The translations under genes and the position numbers were made by a program. This document shows, piece by piece, positions 21,675 through 63,242 of a DNA stretch of 64,000 bases (position 1 is its first letter; every line of letters begins with the position of its first letter). Origin of the DNA: Gracilariopsis chorda. Taxonomy: Eukaryota > Rhodophyta > Florideophyceae > Gracilariales > Gracilariaceae. The notes under the pieces are model-generated. The model worked only from the letters and a program-made list of their open reading frames with translations. It made no database searches and was not told where the DNA came from. Where the stretch lies: positions 248,001-312,000 of the forward strand of contig NBIV01000049.1 of NCBI GenBank assembly GCA_003194525.1, given 5' to 3'.

Positions 21675-23460
21675 TCATGACGAAGGGCCCGCACCAGAGT
21701 GATTGGTTGACTGAGGATAGTTTGCCGCGGCGAGAGCCAGAACCTGTCCATCATCTTCTATGTCTGGAGGTACCGGGATTCCAAGGTTTTGGAGGTTCTC
21801 GCGCAACGCGATGACGTGAGGGTCCGGTACAACCGTGAGTGGCTCGTCTGCTAGAGGTGGCGGCTCCATAATCTGAGCTATAAAGCCCTACCCCTTGGGA
21901 GCACTCGATTGGTTGGGCGCACCAGCGTTGTTCGGAAGAACCGAATCCATGACCGGTCCATGGTAAAGGCCGCCACTCTCGTTGGCCTTTTCATCCATCA
22001 TCGGATCATCAAAGTCAACCGACGGCTCCAAATCGTCCTGAAATACGACTCCTGTCAGATGAACCGCTGGTATGGTCCGCGGAAGACTGCGTTGCTCAAA
22101 TTCATCAGCACGGGACACCGTTGCACCCACATACGGGTCGTAATAGACGAATTCCACAGCAGTTGGATGCCGGCGACCCGGAGGTTTGTCACGAAGATTT
22201 CTTGGACCCTGACCACGGTTACCCGACGGAACGGTATCCCACTTGACCTGGTCGATGACATCCACAATGTATAAGACTTCGTCGAAGTTTACTTGGCATC
22301 CCAATGGGATTGTCAAGTCGAGCTGTTTGATGATATTCCTTACTATTGGCGGAATGGACCAAAGACAGTAGTTGTCATACACTTCCCAGAGATGGAAAAC
22401 CGCTACGAGAGTAGCCCACTCTGTGGAAATAGGCGACCAATAACCGGATTTTGGATCATCAGTGAAGTGGGAACTATATAAGTTGAACGGGGAGGACGTT
22501 CCGGCAAACATCCCTTGGGTACCTCAACCTGACACCACCACGGTGGTAGCGCTGCGAAGCGACCGCTGAAAGTTTGCGGGAGATACAGTTTGGTTTCGAT
22601 ATTGGTGTATGGAATCAAATACTCATGTCGGGAACGCGCCTTGCGCTCAGACCGATCTTCTCGGAGAACGCCGCTTTCGTTTCAGAAATTCAAAGGAACT
22701 GAAACCCCAGAGATGATAGGCCTCGCACAATTGACCATATTGGAATTGATGGTTACCTGCGTTGCGGTTTCGGGGTGTGCCGTATCGAACTGGGCCTGGT
22801 TATCCCCATAGGATACTTCGCCATAGGTGCGATACATCGATACGTCGAAGTCGTATTCACTGGGAATCACATGTTGAATTGGAGTACGCATGAGCCGTTG
22901 ATACGCGAGTCGCGTCATTTATTCTTGGGCCCAATCGAGGTTCTCCTCACAGCGGGGGTCTATCCTTAAAAGGTTAGGATCCAACGCAATGCCTCCCTGC
23001 CAATCGCGTGAAGTGACCACCTCAAGTCGAAGCCCACCAGGGAGAACGCCGTCGTGTGCCTAGGACTGGAGCAGTGGCAGATTGAGAACCTCGACGGGTA
23101 AAACCAAGGAACGCGGGCATAGATCAAAGGATTCTGTAGCGGATCCCGTGCTTCCAGGGTTACCATAGGGACCCTCCCGAGTTGGTTTATGACAACCGGA
23201 GTACCCTGAGAGGAGTGCCACGCGCAGACGTGTACCAGAACGGTTATCGGAGCGTTACTCTGAGGCAATGAAGCCGTAGGAGACCGGCTCAGTGCGGAGG
23301 ATGAAGGAGCTATACTCCCAGACTGGGAAGTACCCTCTCCGGGGTTGTGTTGGTTGAGATTCTCTAGGTTCATTAACCGAGATGAAGAATCGGTTTGGAT
23401 GTTATTAGTATTCGTTGGTGGCATTACTTGTTGAACCGGAGGAAGTTCTGTATCACTCAT
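21675..23460 (-). pseudogene. Antisense accessory ORF, old copy
   Basis: The minus strand between the chromodomain and the 3' LTR holds collinear pieces of one protein of about 590 codons in three frames: 23460-22966 (ATG start, Ser/Asn/Pro-rich), 22918-22682, 22618-22403, 22511-21888 and 21869-21675. They align with the antisense ORF at 60559-62385. Matches include RLAYQRLMRTP / RIAHERQSRAP, FDVSMYRTYGEVSYGDN / FDVNLFLTRAEIGYGES, PYTNIETKL / PYQNLEIER, and KQLDLTIPLG / RNLDLSVPVG. An acidic stretch containing DDPMMDE also aligns. The ATG lies 83 bp from the 3' LTR. No known domain, membrane segment or catalytic motif is recognised. Its conservation against a sense strand with no open frame suggests it was once translated. 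Confidence 0.75.
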
Positions 23461-41477: not shown

Positions 41478-42303
41478 TGAAGTGCAACGCCCTCAGAGAG
41501 GGATTCTGGGTACTTGAACGCTTTCCCGATATTATCGGTTGTGTAGTGTGTATATGAATTACGCCCCACTATGGTGGATATGGACACGTGGGAAACGGTT
41601 TTGGGTCAATTGGCGGTTGGCCTCAGTAGTGGATGTTGCCACGAAATGTGGAGTATTTTAGTTAATATTATTTATTATTTTCACACCCATTTCTGGGAAG
41701 CTAGTACTTAGTGCGACGGCACACTGCCGTCGCACCAGTAAACCTTCCCCAACAAGGGACCCCAACCTGGGGAATTGGCTCTAGTTGTTGCCGCTTGCGC
41801 GCGTACTCTACTCCTCCTTGGAGGGAAACGCCGTAAACCACGGGACATCTAACCCCCTTGCACATCTAAAGGGACCCATCACTGGGAGTATAATTGTTCC
41901 AATTGCATTGGTGTTTCGCCCTGTATAGGGATATTGTTACTGGCATCACCGTTCGTCCCCGTCACTCTCGCAACTCACTTCGCCCTCTTTTTCTCCTCTT
42001 CGCCCTTCCTTTTACCCCTTTTTAGGGTAGCACCTCCCGCTATCCGCGGCCCTCGTGTCCGCATCCGCTCACACACCCCCACTTACGTGGAAACATACCT
42101 CTAGTGAGGACCACACCCCGCTCACGCGGATACCGATTCTTCGCCCTCACCTCCCTGCGCGAGTCGCGACAGGTGTCCCTGGTCTTACAAACCGGCTTCG
42201 CCGTGACCCCTCTGGGAGGGCTCTACCCAACTGGGCTCACCTCGTGAGAGGAAGATCCCGAACGTCTTTCGGTGTTTTTCCCCCTTTGGGGCATTGCACC
42301 ACA
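41478..42303 (+). repeat. Middle LTR: 5' LTR of inner element (copy 2)
   Basis: 826 bp, TGAAGTGCAACG...GCATTGCACCACA, inserted after GCCAAC of the copy-1 RT. It differs from both outer LTRs at shared sites and in its pyrimidine-rich block near 41960-42030. Confidence 0.9.
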
Positions 42304-42306
42304 AAG

Positions 42307-42327
42307 TGGTCTCCCGACCTAGAATCG
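42307..42327 (+). promoter_or_regulatory. tRNA primer-binding site, copy 2
   Basis: TGGTCTCCCGACCTAGAATC, three bases after the middle LTR, identical to copy 1. Confidence 0.7.
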
Positions 42328-42408
42328 GTTTTTGTTTTCCCTCTTACGAGGTTTGTTTTTATTTACCGGAAGTTCCGTGATCGTTTCCCGTCGTAACGGT
42401 ATTTTCTC

Positions 42409-44582
42409 ATGTCGAGAAATCCCTCCGACGCGGAGCCAGTGGTTATGCGTAGTCGCTCCCGCGACAACGCGGACACATCCGAAGTTCGGTTCGTACCCCG
42501 TATCCCTATACGGACAAGTTCCAGCCGTACTGGCGCCGCTTCATTGCGGAATGATACCCCCGACCGGGAACCCGGGAACCTCCTTTTGCCCTCGTTATCA
42601 CCCCCGCAGGGGAATGCAGCATCGACTCCGGCTGTTGCCGCAGTGCCCCAGGCACCCCGGCCTGCTCCCGCTGTCGCGGCTTCAAGCCCCCGTGGAACGG
42701 GCGATAACACCCCCCAGGGGACTTCCCTGGAATCCCAGGTCCGCGCTCTGTGGACCGCCCATGACACCCTTGTAGGGGAACTAAAATCCCACCAAGAGGT
42801 GGTCTTGGCAACCCCCGTAAAGGAGGTCGCCAAGGAACTCCGTATTTTACGGTCTGACGTCAACTCCGTGTTGGAGAGTTTGGGACAACCCGCCACCTTC
42901 ATCGAAGGAGTTGAAGCCCGATTTGATCGGATTGGTGCCCGCCTGGAGACGCTGGAGCAGTTCGTCCTCATGGACAAACCATCTCCGGATGATCCGGTAA
43001 ACGAGGCATCGCACAACGACCAGCTTGCTGGGAAGAAGAAACGCCGTCATCGACGGAAACACCACCGAAAATATTCGGACTCCGATTCTTCGACATCTTC
43101 GGACTCATCCCGAAACCATTCGGTTAGCTCGAGCTCCTCGGACTCCGACTCGGAGGACGAGAAGCGAGGCTACTCCTCCGCTCGAAGCGGTCATCGGCCA
43201 CTAAAGGTGTGGTCCGAACCCGCCAGAAGGGGAGAAGACACTCCGGTCTCCGGGAATTGAAACCGACAAACCCGGATTACCGGAAGCTTTTATCATACCG
43301 GTACTACCGGCTCGAAGATTCGTCACTTGGACCTACGCCCCGTGGTACGGGAAAGGTGCGAGAATGCATTAAGCGAATGCAGCTCTCGCTCCGCAACCAG
43401 TATTTTACTGGAGAGGACCCAGTCCTAGTACTGGATTTCCTATCCCGCTTTGTAGCGGAGGCCAATATCCTCGGTATGAATGAGGGACAAGCCTATTTGG
43501 CTTTACCGTATTTCTTACGGGGAGTGGCGGAGGACCAATACAACTCTGTCAGAGGATCTTCTCGCGCCTCCGAGGGAGGGGTTACTTGCTGGCCGGAGGC
43601 TGTGCAGTATCTTCTGCGCTCCTACGCCACAAACACTGCTATTCAGCAGGCTATCCTTGCTTTGCGAGATACACGCCAGCGTGCTGGAGAGACCGAGACC
43701 GATTACTCGGTAGGCCTTAACAAGGCTTTCCACAGATGTGGTAACGTATACCCCGCTGGGGAGCGCAGTACCATGTTCATCGATGGTCTTGACAAGGCAA
43801 TCCGGAGTTTCGTTACCCGTTATCGGGAGAACAAGCGGAGGATCACTTATCTCGAGCTGTTCCAACACGCTCGAGTGGAAGGGGATGCACTTCGTGCAAG
43901 AACTCCGAACAATCGGTCTAAATCCGCGAAGGCGTTGATGATGGAGAGTGATTCCTCATCGCTCCCGCTCACTGCAGATGGGAACCCTAGACAGGGATTT
44001 GATACCATGCATTTAGTGCAGGGGGATGGTGTGTCGATTCCAACCACCGATTTACCGTCAAAGACGGAGATGACCCGTGATACGGGAACAGAAGATCTCG
44101 TTCTATACGGTGGTAACAGTCGGGTCCAACCCCAACGACTCCCGCTTTCAAACGGTCAAACCCGTTATCAACGGCCTGGATGGACTGACACCCGCTATGC
44201 GGTTCGCTTCCCCGATACTCGGAATAACAATCTGCGTGTCGCGGTGTTGGCTCTCATTTGCCACCTTTGTTATGCCCATGGCCATACCTCGCCTCAGTGT
44301 ATCTGCTCACTGAAGGATATGGCCAAGGTGGTGGCAAACTACGAGGCCTTCACTCCAGAGGAGAAACGTTCCGTCCCGACGGCTTCCTACCTCCGTGCTA
44401 AAACGGACTTTTCCCATGCCCTACCGCAGACCCCGCGTGCGCGGCAAGCTTCATACACCCCGATTCGGGAGATCACGCAACCATCCGTTGCAACCCCCGC
44501 TTATGCGGATAGAAACCCCCGTCAACGGGATGAAGCACTCGTTGTCGAGGAAACCAACCCACCGCCGAAGGCGGAAAACTAA
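42409..44582 (+). pseudogene. Gag of copy 2, one frameshift
   Basis: Same layout as the 724-aa gag. The frame starting MSRNPSDAEP runs to 43260, and the rest continues in another frame (43209-44582). Compared with copy 1, CTCCTCGCGCTCG has become CTCCTCCGCTCG near 43175: one G is lost just after the Ser/Asp-rich stretch. From about 43480 to 44582 the DNA is essentially identical to copy 1, including the zinc knuckle, whereas the N-terminal half differs at scattered sites. Confidence 0.9.
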
Positions 44583-44618
44583 CTGAGGGAGTCTCCCCTT
44601 TGGGAGAGGCGTCCTCAG
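44583..44618 (+). promoter_or_regulatory. Gag-pol junction hairpin (copy 2)
   Basis: Same two-part stem as copy 1, starting three bases after a GGAAAAC heptamer (44573-44579). Pol is open in the -1 frame from 44534, overlapping gag by about 49 nt. Confidence 0.65.
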
Positions 44619-45586
44619 ACAAGAGGCTGTTGGCGCCCGAGGCGTCCTCGCCTCGCTCCCCGGTGAAAGTCCTCTCGAGGAAAGACACCGCAGACGCGGA
44701 CTCTGCGCACCTCGGTGTGTTGCGTCGCCCGTGGATACGGAGTAAAAATCCCCGGATTCCCGGTAGAGTCTTGGTCTTGGCCAAGCGCAATTATAAGGTC
44801 TATGCCGACCTTGGCCTTGACCCCCAGTTTATGGTGAGGTTTCTCACCGTCCTGGATACAGGTGCAGGCCCCAACTTTGTTGTGGAATCATTGTTACCCC
44901 CGCTTGTGCGGTCGCGTATCCGCTCTGACGCGGTCCCCGACATTTCGGATGCGAACAACAATCCGTTACAAACGGTGGGCACAGTGGACCTCGTCGTGAG
45001 ACTTGGTACCTCTGTGGTGAAGTTGGACTTCATCGTTTGCCGTTCATTGGCAGCACCAGTCATACTGGGATGTGATTACTGCGACAGATTTATCGACGCA
45101 ATCAGGCCCCGCCTCAGGCGTGTAGAACTTGAAGACGGATCGTCGGTTCCAATTGTTCGCCGCCCGCTAAAGCGGTCCTCTCGGAAACAAGTTCCGCTCC
45201 CTGCTGCGCAGGAACCACCGCCCGCGTCCTGCGAGTCCACCAAGCTCCGCGTCGCCCCCTCGGTTTCTATACCACCTGAGTCCCAAGTCTGGGTGCAGGT
45301 AAATTCCCGTCAACACGGTCTTCGGGTTATAAAACCCCTCGCCTCGTTGTACGAGAAATCCCAGCTGGCGCTGGCTAATGGAATTGTCTCCATTTCCCCG
45401 GATGTTCCTTTCCGGATATTGGTTGCGAACCTTGGCAAACACCCCCAGTATCTGGTCAAACACCAAGTAATTGGGAGTGTAACCCCCCATCCTATGGGAA
45501 TGCTGCCAACAAAGATGACAGCCGCCGATGTACTCGGAGTTACCACCTCTTCTGAGGAGTTCGCCCCGCCGTCCGAAGACGTCAAG

Positions 45587-45600
45587 TCTAAGGAGGGGGA
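45587..45600 (+). promoter_or_regulatory. Internal polypurine motif, copy 2 (protease-RT linker)
   Basis: TCTAAGGAGGGGGA, at the same place as 40812-40825. It encodes the SKEGEE segment. Confidence 0.5.
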
Positions 45601-46702
45601 GGAAACCGCTACTTCAGCGTCGAACATACCGAGTAACTCGGAATTGCGAACCACACCTGTTCCACAGGACAATGCTCCATCGAGCAACGACCGGATTGAT
45701 CCGGAAAAAGCACTGGAAGCGCTGGACTTCAGCCACGTTCCAGAGTCGCACCGCGACAAACTCCGTACCATGTTACGGGAATTCACCACAATGTGGGATG
45801 GCTCGCTTGGCGAGATTAATGCAACGGAACACCGGATCGATTTAATCCCCGGTGCGCGACCGGTTGCACAACCCCCTTACAGGGCAGGTCCCAAAGCTCG
45901 GGAAGAGGAGCAGTCCCAAGTGGACAAGATGCTCCGCGCAGGTGTGCTTGAGCCCGCTCAATCACCCTGGGCATCCCCAGTTGTACTGGCTTTAAAGGCC
46001 GACGGAACCTGGAGGTTCTGTGTCGACTACCGCGGGCTCAATGCCGTGAATGTTAGGGACACGTACCCTATCCCTCGTATGGACGAGTGCATTGACTCCC
46101 TTGGAGACGCCACCGTGTTCACGGCCCTTGATGCCAATTGGGGATATTGGCAAGTACCTGTCAGACAGGAGGATCGCGACAAAACTGCATTCACCTGCCA
46201 TGCAGGAACGTACCGCTTCAAGCGGATGCCATTTGGGTTAACCAACGCCCCCGCCACCTTTCAGCGTGCCGTAGATATTCTACTCAACCGCTGTAAGTGG
46301 CGGAGTTGTCTGGTCTACCTTGATGATATTATCATCTTCTCCAACTCGTTGGACGACCATCTCACTCATGTCCGAGACGTGCTGACCGTACTCTGCGATG
46401 CGGGAATTACCCTCAAGTTGAGGAAATGCGAGTTTTTCACAGATACTGTGAAGTATCTGGGTCACATTATCCGTCCTGGACGGTTAGCGATCGAGAAAGC
46501 TCGAGTCAAATCCCTCGTTGAGGCGAAAGAACCCCGTACTCAAACGGAACTGCGCTCCTTTTTGGGGCTGGTCAACGTCTATCGACGGTTTATCCCGAAC
46601 TTTTCGGATACTGCGGCGCCCCTAAACGCGTTGTTGCGAAAGGGGAACCCCCAAAACTGGGAACATTTACGCCCGAGCAATCGGAAGCTTTTAACTCCTT
46701 AA

Positions 46703-47493
46703 AGGAGGCTGTCACATCAGCACCAATCCTACATCTCCCAAAACTTGGGTTGCCATACTCCGTAGATACGGACTCGAGCGACTACCAAGTCGGGTGTGCT
46801 CTTTTTCAAACCACCCCCGAGGGGGAACGACATCCAATTGGTTATTGGTCACGTTCGCTCAATGTTCATGAGCGGAACTACTCCGTATCGGAGAAAGAGT
46901 GCCTTGCCGTCGTATGGGCGATGACCACTCTGCGCCCCTACCTTATGGGAATTCACTTCACCGTGTACACGGATCATTCCTCATTGAGGTGGTTGATGAA
47001 TATCTCCGACCCGTCGGGACGCCTCATGCGCTGGAGACTCCGCCTCGCGGAATATGACTTTCAAGTCATTTATAAAAAGGGTGCGCAGAACACCCAGGCC
47101 GACGCTTTGTCGCGGTTACCCACAAGTGGGGAAGCACTCCCAATGGAGGATGATGAAGTCCCATGTTTCATGGCTATAGACCGGGACGATCCGGAACATG
47201 CCGTCGAGGCTAGGCCAGAAACCTGGGACGAGGATGCTGATTTTGACGAACTACTCGCATCGCGAGATAAATCTGAGAACCCGTTACCGGGAAACTTTGT
47301 ACCGGTATCACCGGAAGAAATGATCCGAGAACAATTGGGCGACCCATTCTGTACGAGAATTCGTGCCCGTATCAACGGTGGTGAAGATCTCCCTTTCGGG
47401 GTAAACGACAAAGGCTACCTCGTAAGAAAGGTCGAAGCCCCCCCACAGATTGTGGTACCACATTCCCTGCAATCGCGGGTGTTACATCTATAA
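46703..47493 (+). pseudogene. Pol of copy 2: RNase H
   Basis: The frame 46750-47493 carries the Ty3-type RNase H: YSVDTDSSDYQVGCALF (Asp), NYSVSEKECLAVVW (Glu), TVYTDHSSLRWLM (Asp) and KKGAQNTQADALSRL. It then continues through the tether toward the integrase zinc finger and stops at a TAA in what is LHLSHYAK in the 52-63 kb element. Confidence 0.85.
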
Positions 47494-48679
47494 CACTACG
47501 CCCCCATTGGAGGTCACCCAGGTGGGAGGAAACTCTACCTAACCCTGCGAAGGGATTTCTATTGGCCCACAATGGCGGTGGATTGCTACGCAACTGTGCG
47601 GTTTTGTAGCGAATGCGCGAAGAATCGCGTGAAACTCCGCAAAAATGCGAAGAAGATGAAACTATTCCCGCAAGGGCGCCGCTCGAGTTTATCGCGATCG
47701 ATATTCTCGGACCACTACTCGCCACGAAACGTGGAAACAAGTTTCTACTTGTCATTACCGACCGCTTTTCTAAGCTGGTACGGACTGTCCCTCTTCGTAG
47801 GATAATACGGTGGCCCAGGCTCTGGTGACGCACTGGATTTTCGTCTATGCTCCCCCTGTGGAGGTGCTCTCCGATAACGGGAAACAATTCGCGAGCAAGT
47901 TCTTCCAGGATGTTTGTCGCATCCTGGATGTCAAGAACTTGTTCACGACTACCTACCACCCCCAGTGTAATGGGCAAGTTGAACGGTTTAACCGGACGTT
48001 ACTCGCGGCGTTACGTTCCTACGTCGCTGACCACCCAGAGAACTGGGACATGTACGCTGATGCGTTAACCTACGCGTACAACACGCAGGTACACCGGACT
48101 ACCGGAGTTTCGCCATTCGAGTTGGTTCTATCTAGAACACCCCCGCCTGTGGCGCTGAACCCCAAGCTACCCTGGACAATTTCCCATCAGTGGGTATCCC
48201 CGATTCGGGCAAATAACTACGTCTTCATCAGGAAGGAGTACTACAACCCGGAACAGGAGAAGCGCCGTAAACTCTCGCCTGTGGCGGATGGACTATTCAA
48301 GGTCATCTCTGTAAACACCGACACTGTCGTGGTAGAGATGGGCGACACGCACGAACGGATTTCCCGTGATCGTGTTGTGCTTGCCCCTCCTCCCTCGTCA
48401 GAGGTAGTCCTGGATCCAGGCAACCACGTTTCTACGGACTCTGCAACACCGGAATCATCCGGGAGTACTAGGCCTACGGTACTACCACACCCCAGCCGGG
48501 GACTCTCAGACCTACTGACCCTGTCGGACTCACCGGCTCAGCCGGATAATTCGGGCCTCTCAGAGCCCGTCCCTACAACGCCCCCCCCCCTGGCGCGAAT
48601 TTATACCTGCCAGGCGGGGAATGTTATCCCTGATCTCGCCGCTCCGTCTAAGGAGGGGGAGGAGAACACTCGTTTTTGA
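47494..48679 (+). pseudogene. Pol of copy 2: integrase
   Basis: Zinc-binding HHCC remnant: GGHPGG, then FCSEC at about 47600. Core: FIAIDILGPLL (first Asp), VEVLSDNGKQFASKFF (second Asp), TYHPQCNGQVERFNRTL (Glu). The 47494-47820 part is split by frameshifts. Compared with the element at 52-63 kb, about eight bases are missing at 47808 and roughly 120 bp at about 48190. The frame from 47810 ends with SKEGEENTRF and a TGA. Confidence 0.85.
48647..48660 (+). promoter_or_regulatory. Internal polypurine motif at the integrase-linker boundary
   Basis: TCTAAGGAGGGGGA followed by GGAG, identical to the core 3' polypurine tract of sister elements. Confidence 0.5.
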
Positions 48680-50002
48680 GCAACGATATCGCCGTCGCAA
48701 CGGGAAACACGTAACATACGGAACACTGACTGTAGAGCACGGAGTATGTCACACGACACTAATCCCCCGTTCTCTGGCAGTGCTGCGCAACTACCGCACA
48801 CCCCTGTCAGGGAAGGATCCCCGGTACGGGAGTATGGTGACGATCGACCCCAATCCCGTGAGCAGAGCGATGCATCGAAGCCGCCATTGGCGGAAGCCCC
48901 CGCAGAACCGGTCCAATTAGGTCCAGCAGACCCGCGCCCCGCGGAGAAGAGGCGCCCAGATACGCCAGTGCCACTGGGAAATACCCACACCCCTCTTGGG
49001 GAAAAAGGCAGCCAAGCCGCAGTCGAAGCTTCAGGCCCTGGCGCGCAAGCGCCGGAAACGCCTCCCGTCGTCGACGGAATCGAAGCCCCCGCTCCGGGGA
49101 ATAATTTGCGCCAACTTCCGCAACGCTGCGGCGAAGAACCGAGGAACTCGGGAAAAACGCGCGCCATCGCACGCTCGAAACCGGTCGTACCGGACGCTGC
49201 CCCTCCTCATGGAGACGGTGCACCCCGCTCAGCAGCAAGGTCCCTGAAAAGGGTGTCATCGGCAACTGCCCGGCACCCCCCAAAGGGGAATTTTAACCAC
49301 AATGCCGGTGTACCGGATATAGCCTTACGCAACCCCCCTGTAGCCGGGGACACCACGGCACAGCCGGAACGTATGGCAGAGAACGCTCGTGACCCCCCAG
49401 GGGAGGCGGAAAGCTTACCAATCACCGTGTCGCACGGGACCCCACAGGGGATGTCGCAAACACCGTTCCCGCATACGCGGCAAAGACCCCGCAAGCTCGC
49501 GGTTCGTGAAGAAGACCGCACTCGCGGATTTCAAGTCCCCTGCCGGTTGGCGGTTCGCCCGGCCTACCGTGATGACGGGAACAACGACGCCCCTCTGGGG
49601 AATAACTTGGCGGTGAAAACCATGACGCCTAACACCCTCTTGAGGGATATCCTCCAGCACGAGCAGCGGCCGCTACCACAGCGCACGGCAACGCCGGAGT
49701 TATCGCCGACAACCCTGATGGGGGGCCACATACCGCACAGCGGGCAACCCTCGCAAGGGAGTATAACCACCACCCGGCACGGCCAGCAGGTCTACGAACG
49801 AGAGTTCGTAGTAGACCGACTTGTTGGACACACCTGGGACCAGGATGGTATTCTACAATACCGGGTCCGCTGGTACGGGTATGACCCCAGTGGGGATATG
49901 TGGGAGCCAATCGAACACCTCCCACGGTCGCAGGTCGTGCGATACCACCGTCAAACGGGACCTGCAGCCCCAGCTACGCTGGTTAATGCCCAAGTCGGGT
50001 AA
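48680..50002 (+). CDS. Linker plus chromodomain ORF of copy 2
   Basis: A frame of 418 codons (from ATG 48746), in the same frame as integrase but separated by one TGA (48677-48679). The first 340 residues are Pro/Arg/Ala-rich and likely disordered, with a basic LAVR motif repeated (RKLAVREEDR, RLAVRPAYRD). A chromodomain follows at about 350-405: EFVVDRLVGHTWDQDGILQY, YRVRWYGYDPSGDMWEPIEH. Its aromatic residues (F/V, W-Y, W) are in place. Chromodomains on Ty3-type integrases steer insertion by reading histone marks. The sister element has no stop here, so this was probably the C-terminus of pol. Confidence 0.8.
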   Translation, partial: ATISPSQRETRNIRNTDCRARSMSHDTNPPFSGSAAQLPHTPVREGSPVREYGDDRPQSREQSDASKPPLAEAPAEPVQLGPADPRPAEKRRPDTPVPLGNTHTPLGEKGSQAAVEASGPGAQAPETPPVVDGIEAPAPGNNLRQLPQRCGEEPRNSGKTRAIARSKPVVPDAAPPHGDGAPRSAARSLKRVSSATARHPPKGNFNHNAGVPDIALRNPPVAGDTTAQPERMAENARDPPGEAESLPITVSHGTPQGMSQTPFPHTRQRPRKLAVREEDRTRGFQVPCRLAVRPAYRDDGNNDAPLGNNLAVKTMTPNTLLRDILQHEQRPLPQRTATPELSPTTLMGGHIPHSGQPSQGSITTTRHGQQVYEREFVVDRLVGHTWDQDGILQYRVRWYGYDPSGDMWEPIEHLPRSQVVRYHRQTGPAAPATLVNAQVG

Positions 50003-50243
50003 CGTCGCCGCGCGAGCGGAGGGCGATAGGAAAGGATAACAAGGCAAGGTCCGTTGAAGACGGGGAACTCAAACGAGAATCACCGTTCTAAACGGGAACG
50101 TTTATTCAAGAGAGCAGCTAGCTCCCCACAACACTATACTAAAATAGCTGGCTATGCCAGGAAAGAAGAACCGGAGACGGCGCACGCGCTTTTATCACCC
50201 ATTTTCGTCTGGGAACCCTCCGCGTCCGCGGTCCTTTTCCCGT

Positions 50244-50258
50244 CTTAGGGGGGGGATA
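50244..50258 (+). promoter_or_regulatory. 3' polypurine tract of the composite element
   Basis: TTAGGGGGGGGATA precedes the TG of the 3' LTR. Confidence 0.75.
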
Positions 50259-51088
50259 TGTAGTGCAACGCCCTCAGGGAGGGATTCTTGGTACTTGAAC
50301 GCTTTCCCGATATCATCGGTTGTGTAGTGTGTATATGAACTAGGCCCCATTATGGTGGATATGGACACGTGGGACACGGTTTTGGGTCAATTGGCGGTCA
50401 GCCACAGTAGTGGATGTTCCCACGAAATGTGGAGTATTTTAGTTGATTTTATTTATTATTTTCACACCCATCTCTGGGAAGCTAGTACTTAGTGTCACGG
50501 TGCACTGCCGTCGCACCAGTAAACCTTCCCCAACAAGGGACCCCAACCTGGGTAATTGGCTCTAGTTGTTACCGCTTGTGCGCGTGCTCTACTCCTCCTT
50601 GGAGGGAAGCGCCGTGAACCACACATCTAACCCCCTTGCACATCTAAAGAGGCCCATCCTTGGGAATATAATTGTTCCAATCACATTGGTGTCTCGCCCT
50701 GTATAGGGAGTCCTGTCCACCGGCATTGCCGTACTTGTTCGTCGCTCTCGCGACTCACCTTCGCACACTCGTCCTCCTTTCCCTTCACTCTCCTCCTTTC
50801 CCCCTTTAAGGGTAGTACATCCCGCTACCCGCGGCCTCTCCTGTGTGCACCCGCTCACACTTCCCCACTTACGTGGAAACATACCTCTACTGAGGGTCAC
50901 ACCCCGCTCACGCGGATACCGATTCTTCGCCTTCACCTCCCTGCGCAAGTCGCGACACGTGTCCCTGGTCTTAGAAACCGGCTTCGCCGTGACACCTCTG
51001 GGAGGGCTCTACCCAACTGGGTTCACCTCGTGAGAGGAAGATCCCGAAAGTCTTTCGGTGTTTTTCCCCTTTGGGGCATTGCACCACA
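50259..51088 (+). repeat. Outer 3' LTR
   Basis: 830 bp, TGTAGTGCAACG...GCATTGCACCACA, followed by the target duplication AGTGA. It shares block differences with the LTR at 36695 rather than the one at 41478. Confidence 0.9.
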
Positions 51089-51093
51089 AGTGA

Positions 51094-52279: not shown

Positions 52280-52284
52280 GCTGC

Positions 52285-53079
52285 TGAAGTGCAATGCCCT
52301 CAGAGAGGGATTCTTGGTACTTGGTCGATTTCGCGAATGTTTCGGTAATGTAGTCATTGCATGAACTACGACCGCTAATAGTGGATTTGACACGTGAGAC
52401 ACGGAAGAGTCAATTGGCGGTTGGCCACAGTAGTGGGCATGAACCACCAAAGTGGAGTAATTTAGTTAATTCTATTTATTATTTTTACACCCATTTCTGG
52501 GATTGGTAGTCTTTAGTGCGTCAGCAGGTTGCGGTCGCACCAGTAAACCTTCCCCAACAAGGGACTCTAACCTGGGGAATGGGCTCTAGACCTCTCCGCC
52601 TTCGCGTGTTCTCTACTCCCTCTTGGAGGGAAGCACCGTCGCGTACGGGAAGTCTAACGACCTTGCCTATCTAAAGGACCCGAGTATTCGGATTATTATT
52701 ACAGCTGTCTTGGTGTCCGCCTGTATAAGGTTTATTTACAGGCACTGCCGTTAGTCTTCGTCACGACACTCGTGACTCCGCTCCCCCTTATTTTTCCCTT
52801 TACAGGGTGGCTTTCCCGCTACCCACGGCTCGTGTTTGCACGTGTCACTAACGTGGAAACCTCACCTCTTTATAGGACGACCACCCCCATACACCGCTCC
52901 TGCGGATACCCAATTCTTGCCTCAACCTCCCTGCGCAAGTCGCGACGGGTGGCCTCGGCCTTACAACCCGACATAGTCGTGCCACTCCTAGGAGGGCTCT
53001 ACCCAACTGGGCTCAGCTCGAACGAGGAAAGATCCCGAACGTCTTTCGGTGCACTCCCGCTTCCGGGCATTGCACTACA
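52285..53079 (+). repeat. 5' LTR of the 10.95-kb element
   Basis: TGAAGTGCAATG...GCATTGCACTACA. A TATAAGG word at 52724, in the second half of the LTR, is a candidate promoter. The partner LTR lies at 62442. Confidence 0.9.
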
Positions 53080-53082
53080 AAG

Positions 53083-53103
53083 TGGTCTCCCGACCTAGAA
53101 TCG
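53083..53103 (+). promoter_or_regulatory. tRNA primer-binding site
   Basis: TGGTCTCCCGACCTAGAATC three bases after the LTR, identical to the composite element. Confidence 0.7.
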
Positions 53104-53195
53104 GTTTTGGTGTTTGGTTCCCTCTTTCGAGGTTTTGTTTCTTTTGTTTGTTTTCCGGAAGTTACGTTATTTTCCCATCGTAACGGTTGGCCCTC

Positions 53196-54729
53196 ATGTC
53201 TAGGAAGCCCTCCTCTGCGGAGCCTGCCACTACGCGCAGTCGCTCCCACAATGGTGGAGATAACCCCGAAGTTCGGTTCGTTTCTCGGATCCCGACTAGG
53301 GCTAAATCCAGCCATGCTGGGGGTGCCTCGTCTAGGACTCCAAACCCTTCCCGGGATCCCCGGAACTCCACGTCAACCCCGTTATCGAATGCCATGGATG
53401 GTGCTCATCTGGCTCCGGCCGTGTCCGCCGCCGCACCTGAACCCCGTCTGACGGGCGATAACACGTACAGCCCGTGGCATGGAGAAGGTGAAACAGTGCT
53501 TAAAACGTATGCAACTCTCACTGCGTAACCAGTAGTTTACTGGAGAACACCCAATTATGGTGTCGGGCTTTCTTTCCCGCTTTGTAGCGGAAGTGGATAT
53601 CCTCGGAATGAACGAGAGACAACCCTATTTGGCATCACCGTATTTCTTACGGGGAGTGGCAGAGGACCAGTAAACCTCTGTCAGAGGATCATCTTGCGCC
53701 TCACAGGGAGGAGTAACCTGCTGGGCGGAGGCGGTGCAATATTTATTGCCGTCCTATGCCACCAATACCGCCATTCAGGGGGTAATCCTCGCTTTGCGAG
53801 ATACTCGTCAGCCTTCAGGCGAGATTGAAACCGATTACTCCGTGCGCCTTAGCCAGGCCTTCCACCGTTGTGGGAATGTATACCCCGCTGGGGAAAGTTG
53901 TACCATGTTCATCGATGGACTTGACCCGGCAATCCGGAGTCTTGTCACTCGTTACCGCCAGGACAGGCGGAGGGTCACCTACCTCGAGCTTGTTCAACAC
54001 GCTCGAGCGGAAGGGGAAGCACTTCGTGCAAGAACTCCGAATCCTCGGTCTAGGCCCGCCAAGGCGTTGGTACTGGAGAGTGACTCCTCATTGCCCTTGC
54101 TTTTTGTGGGTAGAACCCCCCAACAGGAATACGACACCGTGCATTTTGCACAGGGACATGGTGTGTCTATACCAACCACGGAATTGCCGTCAACGACGGA
54201 GGACACCTTCAAAACGGCGCAAGACAACCCCGTATTTTACGTGGGGAACAATCGCATTCAGCCGCCACTAGTCCCGTTTATGAACGGCCAATCCCGTTAT
54301 CAACGGCCTGGATGGAATGACACCCGCCCGGCAGTACGCTTCTCCGATGCTCGGGATATTAACCGGCGCGTCGCCTTCTTGGCTCTAGTTTGCCACCTTT
54401 GCTACACCCATGGCCATACATCCCTTCAGTTTCTTTGCTCACTGCAGGATAAGGCCACGGTGGTGGCAAATTACGAGGCCCTCACTGCAGAGGAGAAACG
54501 TTGCGCTCCGACGGCTTCCTACCTCCGTGCTAAAACGGACTTCTCGCATGCCTTGCCACATATCCCGCGTGCGCGGCTAGCTTCAACTAACCCGAAACGG
54601 GATGTCGCGCAAACGTCCCACGCAACCACAGCTCATGCAGATAAAAACCCCGGCCCCGGAACGAAGTTCTCGTGGTCAAGGATCCTGGACTACCGCCTAC
54701 GGCGGGTACCTCCCAGGAAAACAAATTGA
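53196..54729 (+). pseudogene. Gag with a large internal deletion
   Basis: Starts MSRKPSSAEP like the other gags but jumps after TGDNT straight to sequence matching GTGKVRECIKRM. The coiled coil, basic patch and Ser/Asp-rich region (about 600 bp) are gone. The frame is then disrupted until 53734-54729, where the capsid C-terminal part and the zinc knuckle region follow (CHLCYTHGHTSLQF: the fourth ligand Cys has become Phe). A one-base loss near 54655 shifts the last 25 codons. Confidence 0.85.
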
Positions 54730-54761
54730 GGGAGTCTCCCCTTTGGGAGAGGCGTCCTCAG
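54726..54761 (+). promoter_or_regulatory. Gag-pol junction hairpin
   Basis: TTGAGG and TCTCCC pair with GGGAGA and CCTCAG, with one C-to-T change giving a G-T pair. It retains the GGAAAAC word just upstream. Confidence 0.6.
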
Positions 54762-55759
54762 AGATGAGGCTGTTGATGCCCGAGGCGTCGCCGCCTCGCT
54801 CCCCGGTGAAAATCCTTTCAAGGAAGGACACCGCAGACGCGGACTCTGCACACCTTTCTGTGCTGTGTCTCCCGCAGATACGGAGTAAAAACCCCCGGAT
54901 CCCGGATAGAGTCTTGGTCATGGCCAAGCGCAACTACAAAGTTTACGCCGACCTTGGCCTTTACACCCATTTTATGGTGAGATTTCTAACAGTCCTGGAC
55001 ACAGGTGCAGGCCCCAACTTCATCTTTGAATCACTGCTACCCCCACAGGTGCGGTCTCGTATCCGTTCCGAAACGGTCCCTGACGTCGCAGCTGCGAACA
55101 AAAATCTGTTAAAAACGGTGGGTACCGTCGACTTAGTCGTGCGGTTGGGCACCTCCGTGGTGAAGCTCGACTTTATTGTTTTTCTGTCATTGGCCGCTCC
55201 CGTCATACTGGGATGTAATTACTGCGACAGATTTGTCGACACAATCAGGCCCTGCCTTAGGCGTGTGGAACTCGACGACGGATCGTCAGTCCCGATCGTT
55301 CGTCGCCCGCTGAAGCGTGCTTTGGCGAAGCAAGTCCCACTACCTGCTGCGCAGGAACCACCGCCCGCGTCTCGCGAGTCCATCATACTTCGAGTCGCAG
55401 CCTCGGTTTCTATACCGCCTGAGTCCCAAGTCCGGGTGCAAGTCAATTGCCGTCAACACGGTCTTCGGGTTTTTCAACCTCTGTGCTCGTTATACGAGAA
55501 CTACCACCTCGCGCTGGCAAACGGAATTGTTCACGTTACCCTGGATGCTCCTTTCCGGATACTCGTTGCCAATCTTGGCCAACGCCCCCAGTATCTGGTA
55601 AAGAACCAAGTAATTGGAAGCGTCACTCCACACCCCCTTGGGATGCTCCCGACGAAGATGACGACCGTCGATCTTCTCGGAATAGCCGCCTCTTCTGAGG
55701 AGCCACCCCCTTCACTGACAAACTATCGTCAAAAGAGGGAGAGGAAACCGTTGTTTTAA
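54731..55759 (+). pseudogene. Pol: protease region
   Basis: VLDTGAGPNFIFE (catalytic Asp) and ILGCNYCDRF, then the linker SIPPESQVRVQVN. The frame is lost near 55745 in the purine-rich stretch equivalent to the internal polypurine motif of the other copies, which has been altered here (CAAAAGAGGGAGAGG). Confidence 0.8.
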
Positions 55760-55836: not shown

Positions 55837-57340
55837 GTGGACCCCATAAAGGCACTCGAGGCTATAGACCTCGGCCATGTGCTGGAGTCACATTGCGACA
55901 AACTCCGTGCAATGCTACGGGAATTTACCACAATGTGGGATGGCTCGCTCTGCGAGATTAATGCTACGGAACACCGAATAGATTTGTTACCGTTCACGTC
56001 CGATGGCACAACCCTCTTACAGGGCAGGACCGAACGCTCGGGAAGAGGAGCAGTCCCAAGTGGACAAAATGCCCCGCGCAGGTGTGATAGAGCCCGCTCA
56101 ATCACCCTGGGCATCTCCAGTTGTACTGGTTTTGAAGGCCGAAGGAACCTGGAGGTTCTGTGTCGACTATCGCCGGCTCAATGCCGTGACTGTTAGGGAC
56201 ACATATCTCATCCCTCGTATGGACGAGTGCATCGACTTCCTTGGAGACGCTACCATGTTCACGGCTTTGGACGCCAATTGGGGTTATTGGCAGGTCCCTG
56301 TTAGACAGGAGGATCTTGATAATACAGCGTTCACCTGCCACGCAGGATCGTACCGCTTCAAGCGGATGCCGTTTGGTTTGTCCAACGCTCCCGCCACCTT
56401 TCAGCGTGCAATAGACATTCTATTGAACCGCTTCAAGTGGCGGAGCTGCCTTGTCTACCTGGATGATATTATCATCTTCTCCAATAATTTGGACGACCAT
56501 CTAACCCATGTCAGGGACGTTCTGACCGTGCTCCGCGATGCGGGAATCACCCTCAAGTTGAGAAAGTGCGAGTTCTTCACAGATACTGTCAAGTATCTGG
56601 GACATATCATCCGTCTGGCACGGTCAATGATCGAGGAGGCTCGAGTCAAGTCTCTCGTTGGGGCTAAGGAACCCTGCACTTAAACGGAACTCCGCTCGTT
56701 TTTAGGGCTGTTCAACGTCTACCGACGGTTTATCCCGAACTTCTCGGATATCGCGGCACCGTTGAACGCGTTCTTACGCAAACGAATTCCCCCACAATTG
56801 GGACAATTGACGCCCGAGCAATCGGAAGCGTTTAACTCCTTAAAGAAGGCTGTCACGTCAGCACCTGTCTTATCTTTAACCAAACTGGGACTCCCGTACT
56901 CCGTGGACACAGACTCGAGCGACTACCAAGTTGGTTGTGCTCTTTTCCAAACCACCCAAGAGGGGGACCAAAGGCCAATTGGTTATTGGTCACGCTGGCT
57001 CAATTTACACGAGCAGAATTACTCTGTGTCGGAGAAAGAGTGTCTCGCCGTCGTGTGGGCGCTTTCCACCCTACGCCCCTCTCTTATGAGAGTTCAGTTT
57101 ACCATATTCACGGATCATTCCTCGTTGAGGTGGTTAATGAACATATCCAACCCCTCGGGCAGCCTTATGCGCTGGAGACTCTGCCTTGCGGAATATGACT
57201 TCCAAGTCATATATAAAAAGGGGGCGCTCAACGACGAGGCTGACGCTTTTTCGCATTTACCCACAAATGGCGAAGCAATCCCAATGGAGGATGACGACAT
57301 TCCATGCTTCATGGCTGAAGAACCGGATGACCCGGAGTGA
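55837..57340 (+). pseudogene. Pol: reverse transcriptase and RNase H
   Basis: RT is open at 56003-56683 with VLKAEGTWRFCVDYRRL, FTALDANWGYWQVPV, FKRMPFGLSNAPATFQ and YLDDIIIFSNN, so its catalytic residues are intact. A CAA-to-TAA change ends it at EPCT, where copy 2 reads EPRTQTEL. RNase H is open at 56762-57340 with YSVDTDSSDYQVG, YSVSEKECLAVVW and TDHSSLRWL. ADAFSHL replaces the usual ADALSRL. Confidence 0.85.
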
Positions 57341-57493
57341 AAGTTCGAGGAATGAACAGAAGACTGGGATGAAGATGCTGACTTTCACAACTTACTTGCA
57401 TCCCACAAGACCCCTTAAAACCCCTTCCCGGGAAGTTTTGTACCGGTTTCACCGGAGGAATTGATCTGAGAGCAATCCGGTGACCCCTTCTGT

Positions 57494-58680
57494 ATGAGTA
57501 TTCGTGCCCGTTTAAACGGTGGCGAAGACCTCCCGTTCGAGATGAACGATAAAGGCTACCTCGTTCGGTTGGTCGACGCTCGCCCACAGATTGTGGTACC
57601 TCATTCCCTGCAGTCGCGGGTGTTACATCTCTCGCACTATGCGAAGCTCGGTGGCCACGTAGGTGGGAGGAAGCTCTACGTCACCCTGCGAAGGGCTTTT
57701 TACTGGCCCGCCATGGCGGTTGATTGCTACGCAACTGTGCAGTTTTGCACAGAATGCTCGAAGAACCGGGTGAAGCTCCGCAGGAACGCGATGAAAATGA
57801 AGTTATTCCCTGCTAGGGCGCCACTCTAGTTTATCGCAATCGATATTCTAGGACCTCTTCTCACTACAAAGAGAGGCAACAAGTTCTTACTTGTGATCAC
57901 CGATCGCTTTTCAAAGCTTGTTCGGACTGTCCCTCTTCGGAGGATAACCGCTTTCACGTTGGCCCAGGCTCTGGTAACGCACTGGATTTTTGTCTACGGT
58001 CCCCCTGTGGACGTGCTCTCCGATAACGGACGGCAGTTCGCGTCCAAGTTCTTCCAGGATGTTTGTCGCATCCTGGACGTGAAGAACTTGTTCACGACTA
58101 CCTACCATCCCCACTGTAGTGGGCAAGTCAAACGGTTCAACCGGACTTTGTTGGCCTCTCTCGGTTCCTAAGTTGCTGATCACTCCAAAACTTGGGACTT
58201 GTATGCAGATGCTTTGACATTTGCATGCGATGCACAAGTTCACCGGACTACCGGAGTGTCACCGTTCGAATTGGTTCTATCTCGTCCACCCCCGCCTGCG
58301 GCGTTAGACTCCCAAGCCACCTTGGACAATTTCCCATCTGTGGGTCGCTACCGCCAGTAATGGAAGCAATGGCTTACTAAACTGTTCCTCGCAGCGCGGA
58401 AGTCTATGGAACGCGCACAGCCGCGTACAAGCGGGATTTCGACGCTCGTTTACGAGATAATGCTCCCCGCATACGGGCTAATACCTACGTCTTTATACGT
58501 AAGGAATATTGTAACCCGGAACGGGAGAAGCGTCACAAGCTTTCGCCTGTGGCGGATGGACCGTTTAAAGTGGTATCCGTTAGCTGCGACACTGTCGTAG
58601 TGGAAATGGGCAAGGCACACGAGCGGATTTCCCGCGATCGTGTTGTATGTGCCCCTCCTCCCTCGTCTGAGTTCGTCCTG
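57494..58680 (+). pseudogene. Pol: integrase
   Basis: The zinc finger is well kept: LSHYAKLGGHVGG and FCTECSKNRVK. A GAG-to-TAG change at about 57827 interrupts the strand before the first catalytic Asp (IAIDILG). The frame resumes at 57893 with VDVLSDNGRQFASKFF (second Asp) and TYHPHCSGQVKRFNRTL, where the expected catalytic Glu is Lys. Either lesion alone would inactivate it. The downstream region to 58680 keeps a stretch that is deleted in copy 2. Confidence 0.85.
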
Positions 58681-58934: not shown

Positions 58935-59860
58935 GGGGACCTATCTCCACGCTGGAAATTTATTACCGTCGCAACGGGATTTGAGCTGTGAAACACGGAA
59001 GGTCGATGAAGCCTCGCAATCCCCCACACAGGGTTCCGGCACGACGCAGTTACACTGTATGATACGGGAGAGTTAACCGACATCGCAGTCCGTACCCCTA
59101 AACCAGGGAAATTCCCTGAATCAGGATAGCGATGTGGTTTCGCAGACCCCTCACCAGGGTGTAGTTGCAGAACCCTCGTCGACGGAATTTCCCTCCAAAA
59201 CGGATTCCTCAGCACCATCCACACCACTAGTAGCAGGCAGCTCATGCCTTGGAAAACCAGCAACGCCGGAAAATGAAAGACCCTCTTGAGGGAGGAAGGC
59301 AGTAATGCACATCTTGCCACTCAAGTCCCTGTCTCTACAGCCCCGGACTTGAGAACCGTTCATAACGGGAATGTTGTCCGAACTTCGGAGATAGAAGTGC
59401 CAAAGTATCTGCACAATCGCGGTAATATACCGAGGGTCTCGAAAAAATCCGGCGTCGTCGCCAGGGATAAACCGGTCATCCCGGATGATGCACCTCTTGA
59501 GGAAGACATCACACCTCAATTAGAGGCAAAGTGCCCGAACAGGGTGTCCACGGCGCCAGCTGTCCACGCCCCATCAGGGAGTTTAAGGCAACACACTGGA
59601 GCACCGGAAGTAACCGCCGGATACCGGGTGCCAACACAAAAGTGCACGGCTCACCCGGACAGTGTAAGGCCCAAGCCAAGGGAGGCAAAACGCAAGGAGG
59701 CGGTTCAGAGCCACATGCCGTGGGAGTCACGTGAAAGCACGGAGATTGTGCGCCCCGCACCTATCACCGCGCGACGCGGAAAGCCCCACCAGGGAGTGAT
59801 CTCCACAACTCCGCCAAAGTGGCAAGATGCCCGCAAGCTCGCGGTTCGACCGGACTACCG

Positions 59861-59994
59861 TCAACATGGGATGGAGGATCCCCGCAAACTAGCGGTACGA
59901 CCCAATTACCGTGGTACGCGGCAACCGTCAACATGGGATGGAGGAACCCCGCAAACTAGCGGTACGATCCAATTACCGCGGTACGCGGCAACCG
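59861..59994. repeat. 67-bp tandem duplication in the linker
   Basis: Two copies starting TCAACATGGGATGGAGGA at 59861 and 59928 differ at only a few bases. Since 67 is not a multiple of three, the duplication shifts the linker frame. Confidence 0.85.
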
Positions 59995-60558
59995 CTCCAC
60001 GAAGACACCCTTTTGAGGGATATTATTCCACACTCTGCGCCGCATACTCCGAGTGAAACCGGCACGTTGCATCCTGACGCACCTCTGAGGGGAAATATCC
60101 CGTCCCTCGGGCAACCCCTGACAAGCGAGGTCACAATAACACGGCAAGGCTGGCAGGTATACAAACAAGAGTTTGTGATTGAACGAATCGTAGGGCACAC
60201 CTAGAATCAGGAAGGCATTCTAAGATACCGCGTCCGTTGGTACACGGATATGACCGAAGCTGGGACACCATGGAACCCATCGAACACCTCCCTCGTTTGA
60301 AGGTGGTCCAATATCACCGCAGCGCGGGTAGCGCAAATCCAGCTACGCTGTGCAACGCCCGCGTGGGATAAAAACGCCACGAAGCCAGGGAATGTAAGAA
60401 AGAAGGAGTACAGCCCCTTTTGTATGGACTCCGTCAAGGACGGGAATGAAAGAGAAAACGCGGTTCCAAACGGGAAAGTTTACTCAGGAGCCTCGCGCTC
60501 CTGTGTGATGCTAAGCTACATTACTGGCTAAGCCAGGGAAAGAGACCAGGATACTGGA

Positions 60559-62385
60559 TTAGAGTTTCGACCCCTCCCCATCATCCGCGGCGTGACCACC
60601 CGCAAGGCGGTAAGCCAAGGCATCTGCCGTTGCGGTGACGTCACCCGAAACCTCGGCAGCGCTTAAACCCGCTCCGCGGAGGAAGCGGGCAATGACATCG
60701 CTTTCATTGACTGTACCCCCGCTGGGGAGTGAAGGCCCAGTGCTCGTCGTCGGAGGACTGGGAACCGGAGGCACCCCTTCAGGGGATTCGTCTACGACCA
60801 TGTCGGAAACGTCTAGTTCCATGTCCCCCGGCTCTTCGGGTTCGTTATCGACCATCGGGTCATCCTCGCTATACGCGCAGTAGTAATCTTCGGATTCGAC
60901 GTACCAAATCAGGTGGTCGTCCAGCACGTGCCGCGGTGCATCGCGGAGTTCCCTCGCCTCCTCGGAGGAAATTTCCCGGAACTCCCAGGGATAGAAGTAG
61001 ATGAAGTCCCCCGCAAGGGCGGTGTTTCTACCAAGTCCCGGAACACTGGTACCGCCACCGCTGCCGTCAAGCCGACCGCTCTGTTCCAGCGGGACCTCGC
61101 GCCAGTCAATACTGTCAATCAAACCAAGTAATTGAAGTACTTAGTCATTATTGGCAATAGCCCCAACGGGGACGCTGAGGTCCAGATTGCGAATAGCGGC
61201 CCGCACACGCGGTTGGATGAGCTACAGTCGATACTGGTCATAAAGCTCAGCGAGGATATACGCTGCAGTGCGGGCAGCCCACCCGGTTACAATTACCGAC
61301 CAAAGCCCCGACCGGGGATCCTGAATCAAAAAGGAACCGAGGTACGTGAGTGCCGGCGGGAGTTCAACGTAGCAACCCCGGCAGGCTTCATGGAACCTCC
61401 ACCACTCGGGGAGTGCGACGTACCGACCGTGTCGGTGAGGCAGAGCAATCCGCTCAATCTCCAAGTTTTGATACGGTACAAAGTATACGAATTGGGATCG
61501 CCAGCGCCGTTCATAACGGATGAAGTTTTGGAGGAAGTTGGACCGGGACAGCCGGGGAAGGTACCGGAGTTCAGCCCAAAGTAACGGTCGTTCCCAACAC
61601 AGGGCTTCTTGCCGCACAGCGGGAAGGTTCCTCCACGCGAGGGTTTCGTAGCTGGCCAGGCTTTCGCCGTAACCGATTTCAGCGCGCGTTAGGAATAGGT
61701 TGACGTCGAAGCCAAAGCCGGTAGGCACCGGGAATTCGAAAGGCGCCCGGCTCTGCCGTTCATGTGCAATCCGCACCAGCGCCGCATGAGCCGCAATCGT
61801 GGATTCTCCCGAGTTTCTTCGGATATGGGGCACCGGGATGGCGATTCGATGCTGCCAGTCCCACGAAGAGGTGACGAGGCTGGGTAGATCCCCGGGAAAA
61901 GTACCGGAACCATCCGCGTAGGCCGTAATTAAATCCTCGTTGAAGGCAGCGATGGGATGGAACCACGACGCAAGCTGGAGCCGAGAGGCGTGACTCTGAT
62001 TCATCAGATCAAACCCTACAAGGGCGTTATAAGAAGGCCAAGTTTCCGCCGGGATCAGTCCGGAAGGAGCCACCACTGGTGGAAGTTGAAACCCATGCTG
62101 GGACGCTGCGCCAATGTTGGCCGGCTGTGCAGGAGTTCGCCTCCCTTGTGGCAAGGGTACCGACCGGAACCCGGTTGTGAAGTTCCCGACTGGAGTCGGT
62201 TTTGGAGGCTGGTTGTTGTTAATGTTCATATTCCCCTTCGAAAGGGCGTGATCTGACTGAGTTGAGCAGGAAGAGGACGAGCGTGCACTTGTGGAAGGCT
62301 GGTTCGCTGCTTTTGCAGGAGGTTGTTTCTCTGAGGCAGAGGCTTGACCCGGTGACCTGGAGAGGTTTGGACTTTTATGACCCAT
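60559..62385 (-). pseudogene. Antisense accessory ORF, about 608 codons, two stops
   Basis: Read from ATG 62385 on the minus strand, one frame runs to a TAA at 60559. It is broken only by TAG at 61222-61224 and TAA at 61141-61143. The first matches a Trp and the second a Glu in the 21.7-23.5 kb homolog. Residues 1-75 are Ser/Pro/Asn-rich. A globular, aromatic-rich part follows (for example FGFDVNLFLTRAEIGYGES, FVYFVPYQNLEIERI, LPEWWRFHEACRGCYVEL, LYDQYRL), then an acidic stretch (SEDDPMVDNEPEEPGDMELD) and a 45-residue helical C-terminus. No known domain is recognised. The start lies 56 bp from the 3' LTR, so an antisense promoter in or beyond that LTR would be needed. An in-frame ATG at 62607 inside the LTR is less likely. 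Confidence 0.8.
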
Positions 62386-62426: not shown

Positions 62427-62441
62427 CTAAGGAGGGGGATA
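62427..62441 (+). promoter_or_regulatory. 3' polypurine tract
   Basis: CTAAGGAGGGGGATA immediately before the TG of the 3' LTR. Confidence 0.8.
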
Positions 62442-63237
62442 TGAAGTGCAATGCCCTCAGAAAGGGATTCTTGGTACTTGGTTGATTTCCCGAATGTTTC
62501 GGTAATGTAGTCATTGCATGAATTACGACCACTAATATTGAATTTGACTCGTGGGACACGGAAGAGTCAATTGGCGTTTGGCCACAGTAGTGGGCATGAA
62601 CCACCAAAGTGGAGTAATTTAGTTAATTCTATTTATTATTTGTACACCCATTTCTGGGATGGGTAGTCCTTAGTGCGTCAGCAGGTTGCGGTCGCACCAG
62701 TAAACCTTCCCCAACAAGGGACCCTAACCTGGGGAATTGGCTCTAGACCTCTCCGCCTTCGCGTGTTCTCTACTCTCTCTTGGAGGGAAGCACCGTCGCA
62801 TACGGGAAGTCTAACGCCCTTGCCTATCTAAAGGACCCAAGTATTCGGATTATTATTAAAGCTGTCTTGGTGTCCGCCTTGTATAAGGTTTATTTACAGG
62901 CACTGCCGTTAGTCTTCGTCACGACACTCGTGACTCCGCTCCCCCTTATTTTTCCCTTTACAGGGTGGCTTTCCCGCTACCCACGGCTCGTGTTTGCACG
63001 TGTCACTAACGTGGAAACCTCACCTCTTTATAGGACGACCACCCCCATACACCGCTCCTGCGGATACCCAATTCTTGCCTCAACCTCCCTGCGCAAGTCG
63101 CGACGGGTGGCCTCGGCCTTACAACCCGACATAGTCGTGCCACTCCTAGGAGGGCTCTACCCAACTGCGCTCACCTCTAACGAGGAAAGATCTCGAACGT
63201 CTTTCAATGCACTCCCGCTTCCGGGCATTGCACTACA
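62442..63237 (+). repeat. 3' LTR of the 10.95-kb element
   Basis: 796 bp, TGAAGTGCAATG...GCATTGCACTACA, followed by the duplication GCTGC. Confidence 0.9.
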
Positions 63238-63242
63238 GCTGC

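Follow-up and report, generated by a model that had tools for sequence, protein, structure and literature searches.

The stretch of DNA analysed here, a 64,000-nucleotide window of the Gracilariopsis chorda genome, holds a young Ty3 LTR retrotransposon in which a long reading frame runs against gag and pol. We detected the following features in this element:

52285..53079, plus strand: 5' LTR, with the target-site duplication GCTGC at 52280-52284
53674..55756, plus strand: gag and protease region, decayed and in several frames, named from their position and their resemblance to other elements of the window
55982..56680, plus strand: reverse transcriptase (RT) fragment (Pfam RVT_1, E 1.6e-34)
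56684..57337, plus strand: RNase H (Pfam RT_RNaseH, E 1.9e-33)
57470..58680, plus strand: integrase, with Pfam Integrase_H2C2 (zinc-binding) and rve core, then an integrase-C-terminus-like stretch
about 60160..60335, plus strand: decayed chromodomain, read by eye from the frames, with a stop and a frame shift in this copy
60559..62229, minus strand: antisense gene, from the putative start ATG (MNINNN...) to the stop, with two internal nonsense codons
62230..62385, minus strand: in-frame 5' extension beginning at the first ATG (MGHK), lacking third-position excess between subfamilies
62372..62379, minus strand: degenerate TATA-like element, CATAAAAG, at the place of TATAAA or TATATAA in other lineages
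62431..62439, plus strand: polypurine tract, GGAGGGGGA, adjoining the 3' LTR
62442..63237, plus strand: 3' LTR, with the target-site duplication GCTGC at 63238-63242

The two LTRs are 96.6% identical. No Pfam match was obtained for the gag stretch (53674-54726) or for the integrase-C-terminus-like stretch (58381-58680). Directly after the 5' LTR, a stretch complementary to TTCTAGGTCGGGAGACCA is shared by the window (53066-53110) and the C17 element described below (L041, 1971-2010), and is likely the tRNA primer site of both. The sense stretch between integrase and chromodomain contains two head-to-tail copies of a 67-base unit (59857-59990).

The minus-strand frame from 62385 to 60559 comprises 609 codons interrupted by two internal stops and lies between the decayed chromodomain and the 3' LTR, in agreement with the preliminary description, which had reported about 608 codons and two nonsense changes at this place. 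The three frames of the antisense strand contain 2, 15 and 26 stops over this ORF and those of the sense strand 13, 26 and 17, and in 2000 mononucleotide shuffles the number of stops averaged 20.2 and never fell below 7, versus the 2 observed. Codons 1-52 (62385-62230) carry no coding signal between subfamilies. The window copy is one decayed member of a large family.

Two further elements of the window bear on this gene, one carrying a homolog and one lacking the gene:

21888..23459, minus strand: homologous antisense gene of the old element, in pieces, with TATAAAGG upstream at 23480-23473
41478..51092, plus strand: element B, a related deletion derivative without the antisense gene

In the old element (11.6-24.5 kb), tblastn with five homologs aligned collinear pieces at 23157-21966 on the minus strand with 30-40% identity (best E 2.8e-46), which confirms the earlier suggestion of a homolog at the same place and in the same orientation. 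In element B, whose two LTRs share about 89% identity, the chromodomain, polypurine tract and promoter-like stretch are still present, as is the beginning of the probable leader with the first ATG; the rest of the gene is gone. A 731-base query across this junction was searched against the host genome and the best 40 of 1920 candidates were scored, the window itself included. All 39 other scored matches span the ORF-less junction at 93-96% identity, either in full length or in all but 2-5 bases. Derivatives with this junction thus exist in at least 40 genome copies, element B included, at 93% identity or more, and the antisense gene is therefore not required in cis. Either its product acts in trans or the gene is dispensable in some settings.

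Copies of the antisense ORF were then sought in the whole host genome (91.3 Mb, 1081 contigs). When L005, a copy that is naturally open, served as query, the best 72 of 1842 candidates were scored and the matched stretch was free of stops in 22 of them; in some other matches the single TGA listed is where a slightly shorter protein normally ends, as seen in L031 and L033-L037. Two remote-homolog queries returned at least 83 matches (66 stop-free) and at least 98 matches (86 stop-free); since both queries fall short of the gene's full length, a match without stops does not prove that the whole gene is open. Merging the three overlapping match lists gave at least 219 distinct loci, with amino-acid identity between subfamilies down to 32%.

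The position of these loci relative to pol was assessed with the RT of the C17 element as genome query, scoring the best 150 of 3720 candidates and pairing their coordinates with the ORF loci. A scored Ty3 RT match lies within 6 kb of 70 of the 219 loci and is on the opposite strand in 69, at 3226-5014 bases past the 3' end of the ORF. None of the 70 has a same-strand RT within 6 kb, and the one exceptional locus has no RT on the 3' side of the ORF. The remaining 149 loci have no RT nearby among the best 150 of 3720 RT candidates, a gap that the limit on scored candidates can account for. An antisense placing after pol, as the window had indicated, thus holds in 69 of the 70 scorable loci. The full layout from LTR to LTR, with the antisense ORF between pol and the 3' LTR, was read in the window element and in C17. 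The C17 LTRs are 98.6% identical over 563 bases and flanked by the duplication GAAAC, gag and pol lie in long open frames, and the antisense frame is open over 645 codons from stop to stop. Its Pfam domains are RVT_1, RT_RNaseH, Integrase_H2C2 and rve, followed by Chromo (E 1.2e-8) at the end of pol. By this domain order the host elements are chromodomain-bearing Ty3 (chromovirus-like) elements, the window copy itself showing only RT, RNase H and integrase pieces. Intact homologs in related elements, which the preliminary description had named as a check, are thus present as naturally open copies, stop-free matches and the open C17 frame.

Selection on the antisense frame was estimated by the Nei-Gojobori method. 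Between L005 and eight intact copies (L031-L038), dS was 0.855-0.878 and dN 0.183-0.198, giving a dN/dS of 0.21-0.23. Among the eight copies themselves, dN/dS was 0.20-0.44 in the 22 pairs whose dS reached 0.04 or more, and 0.35-1.74 in the six pairs with dS below 0.01, which carry too few changes to judge. The near-identical pair C948/C310 gave 0.61. Distant subfamilies gave 0.14-0.31 with pS of 0.69-0.75, near saturation (no ratio could be computed for three pairs), and pairs involving C17 or C948, which have longer aligned frames, gave 0.28-0.41 near dS saturation (not computable for L005). Changes between L005 and L032 at codon positions 1, 2 and 3 number 106, 79 and 259 over 586 codons, and the other five frames of this pair carry 19-42 stops. 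Five copies of the window's subfamily that bear stops served as a control; their differences from L005 are nearly even by codon position (49/42/49 for the window copy; 52/38/70 for L015, the least even). Together with the low dN/dS between lineages, this indicates that dead copies decay near-neutrally and that the source lineages are constrained. One sense frame shows a dN/dS of 0.36-0.57 over five pairs; it shares third positions with the antisense frame and holds 38-41 stops.

The antisense gene is under purifying selection and occupies a fixed place and orientation in several subfamilies, and we regard it as almost certainly a real, selected protein gene. The past selection proposed from the window is borne out by dN/dS values far below 1 between lineages. 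Of the outcomes that would have spoken against it, values near or above 1 were confined to some near-identical pairs that hold too few changes to judge, and a sense-strand gene as the cause of the similarity was not found, all five other frames carrying stops.

The most probable start is an internal methionine within an Asn-rich stretch, residue 53 of the first frame (window position 62229). Between subfamilies, changes before this ATG are near even over codon positions (17/12/20 of 35 codons; 25/20/26 of 52), and after it they are concentrated at the third position (89/67/239 and 88/71/241, each of 551 codons). A methionine within the Asn-rich stretch is found in L005, L032, C948, C575 and P0003. 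The segment 62230-62385 has no third-position excess between subfamilies and is therefore probably a leader rather than protein. These comparisons partly show that the gene starts some 210 bases inward of the 3' LTR.

In three of five lineages (the old element, C17 and C948) a TATAWA box is located 30-75 bases past the polypurine tract; L032 and C575, which include the lineage of the window copy, have none there. Near the same place we found GATAAAA in L005, L032 and element B, and CATAAAA in the window copy. For this count C310 was merged with C948, and C725, whose polypurine tract is unrecognisable in the stretch fetched, was left out. Markov resampling puts the chance of finding TATAWA in three of five lineages at about 1e-5, for an interval chosen after the data were seen. 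The TATA box, immediately inward of the 3' LTR edge, suggests that the gene has a candidate promoter of its own in these three lineages. The preliminary description had expected the transcript to start in or beyond the LTR; the TATA position, a sequence motif, points to an internal promoter instead, though not in the window's lineage.

Homologs of the protein were searched among 5.8 billion proteins, with about the best 8000 candidates scored per search. The named homologs are BWQ96_03215, BWQ96_10156 and BWQ96_05177 of Gracilariopsis chorda, FGB62_50g12 of Gracilaria domingensis and a partial protein of Agarophyton chilense; others among these candidates come from unnamed sources. Homologs that share about 35% identity retain the frame. 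None of the candidates scored was a named cellular relative from outside Gracilariales, and no relatives were found in Pfam, NCBIfam, PHROGs or PDB, the best Pfam match of 29 members (hmmscan) reaching only E 0.045. Duplication of gag or pol as the source of the gene was rejected by profile comparison (hhalign), with a probability of at most 1.04% in six comparisons and 99.9-100% in two positive controls.

An AlphaFold2 model of one member (the second model, P0005) is confident over residues 20-395, where most ten-residue blocks score above 90; beyond them come an acidic linker, which is disordered, and a pair of C-terminal helices. The predicted layout is thus an Asn/Ser/Pro-rich N-terminus, a mostly helical core of about 370 residues, an acidic linker and a short C-terminal helix pair. 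In three proteins the net charge of the linker is -11 to -15 and that of the core near zero (-2 to +4), so that charge does not indicate nucleic-acid binding by the core. The highest 19-residue hydropathy is 0.90-1.85 in 11 proteins; ten have no clear membrane span, and the value of 1.85 belongs to one borderline stretch in P0006. A search with the predicted model found no relative among solved structures, or among viral structures at a threshold of E 0.001. The function of the protein therefore rests on analogy and anatomy, and a new fold is not established by the lack of a PDB match.

What antisense accessory ORFs do in LTR retrotransposons is a known puzzle; PMC7264820 describes their functions as unknown. 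According to the same paper, plant elements with antisense ORFs between pol and the 3' LTR (aORF-3R) include Grande (gene23), RIRE2, Retand and PvRetro13, the ORF is kept in most copies of some families, and GENE23 of Grande is nuclear, with transcription initiated from a promoter that lies upstream of gene23. The red-algal ORF is like these in position and orientation. Transposase_28 (PF04195) is the domain of most Retand antisense ORFs, and Retand belongs to a non-chromovirus lineage (PMC11963269), whereas the red-algal elements carry a chromodomain. The Boty element of the fungus Botrytis also has an additional antisense gene, brtn, and is likened here by its description (PMC7264820).

Membership in the TRP28 group of Retand and Grande was rejected, no PF04195 being found in the 29 red-algal members (hmmscan, E up to 1). 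HBZ of HTLV-1 contains a bZIP domain, and an HBZ-like protein was likewise rejected, the same scan yielding no bZIP. HBZ is an antisense retroviral gene with a nuclear product (PMC11963269), and the red-algal ORF is likewise antisense. The HTLV antisense promoter lies inside the 3' LTR (PMC7264820), whereas the red-algal candidate lies in the internal region, just inside the LTR edge. LTR elements of bdelloid rotifers carry an extra ORF3 beside gag and pol, of env, DEDDy, GDSL, CC and TM types (PMC5408684); the red-algal ORF shares the status of an extra ORF but is antisense and without Pfam domain or clear membrane span. The env-like class, defined by sense orientation and a transmembrane segment, does not accommodate it, as the ORF is antisense and ten of 11 proteins lack a clear span. 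In the literature as far as covered, including part of PMC12477816, we found no description of an antisense ORF in red-algal LTR elements. What appears to be new is the protein family, the host group, the presence in chromodomain elements and the measured selection together with the internal start and promoter candidates. Since an alignable family under purifying selection, a confidently predicted core, start and promoter candidates and elements with and without the gene occur in one genome, the question of function can be tested outside land plants.

Our preferred, still tentative reading is that a chromodomain-bearing Ty3 lineage of this red alga, with homologs in Gracilariales, carries antisense to gag-pol a gene for a trans-acting accessory protein with a regulatory role. 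The gene sits between pol and the 3' LTR, in some lineages with a TATA box between LTR and start codon, and its product would act in trans for the element family. The protein would most likely be nuclear and regulate element or host expression, for example against silencing, in a mode like that of the antisense accessory proteins of plant Retand and Grande elements and of HTLV. This reading draws on the strand, the promoter candidate, the absence of the gene from amplified derivatives, a protein with neither gag likeness nor a clear membrane span, and the plant and HTLV analogy; no homology to the Retand/Grande or HTLV antisense proteins was found in the tests run. A bolder version, in which a PDB-novel fold expressed from its own promoter inside the 3' LTR edge licenses in trans a red-algal Ty3 network, high-copy gene-less derivatives included, by countering host silencing, is conceivable and rather doubtful.

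A protein that instead dampens the copy number of its element, with antisense RNA that also pairs with genomic RNA, is unlikely. An antisense transcript would run across the 3' part of the genomic RNA, effects of antisense RNA have been discussed for plant elements (PMC7264820) and ORF-less derivatives are numerous, but an RNA effect needs no strong protein-level selection and a self-restrictor would be harder to keep under element-level selection. A structural or envelope-like protein that becomes part of the virus-like particle or helps movement, a role proposed for env-like sense-strand ORFs of plant elements, would fit the place between pol and 3' LTR, which is that of env, and evolution faster than that of RT (pN 0.46-0.51 among L005, C948 and C17, against 0.16-0.25 for RT of the window, C948 and C17). 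The opposite strand, the hydropathy profiles and the lack of any gag match by profile comparison or viral structural match at E 0.001 or better speak against it, and we hold it to be distinctly unlikely.

Capture of a host gene by the ancestral element, with its host function kept (for example as a chromatin protein), would explain a confidently modelled globular core unrelated to gag and pol. It is nevertheless improbable given that the protein searches, with about 8000 candidates scored in each, gave no named cellular relative outside Gracilariales, that no Pfam match of the 29 members was better than E 0.045 and that PDB yielded none. That the antisense frame is no gene and stays open through codon bias of a sense gene or by chance can be given practically no credence, even though several copies have a sense frame of some 188 codons overlapping the ORF. 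In five pairs of copies the sense frames contain 12-42 stops per pair, the third-position excess falls in the antisense frame and distant homologs keep that frame, which refutes this explanation.

The window offers some further observations on its elements. The segment 36700-41477 recurs at 41483-46246 (96.3% identity over 4780 columns), forming a tandem of LTR, gag and part of pol; recombination between LTRs, or an assembly effect, may perhaps account for it. Inside the old element, the minus strand at 14050-14788 carries a solitary LTR-like copy with 76% identity to the LTR of the young element. Just past the 3' LTR of the old element, a third LTR-like copy of that element is found at 24489-24947.
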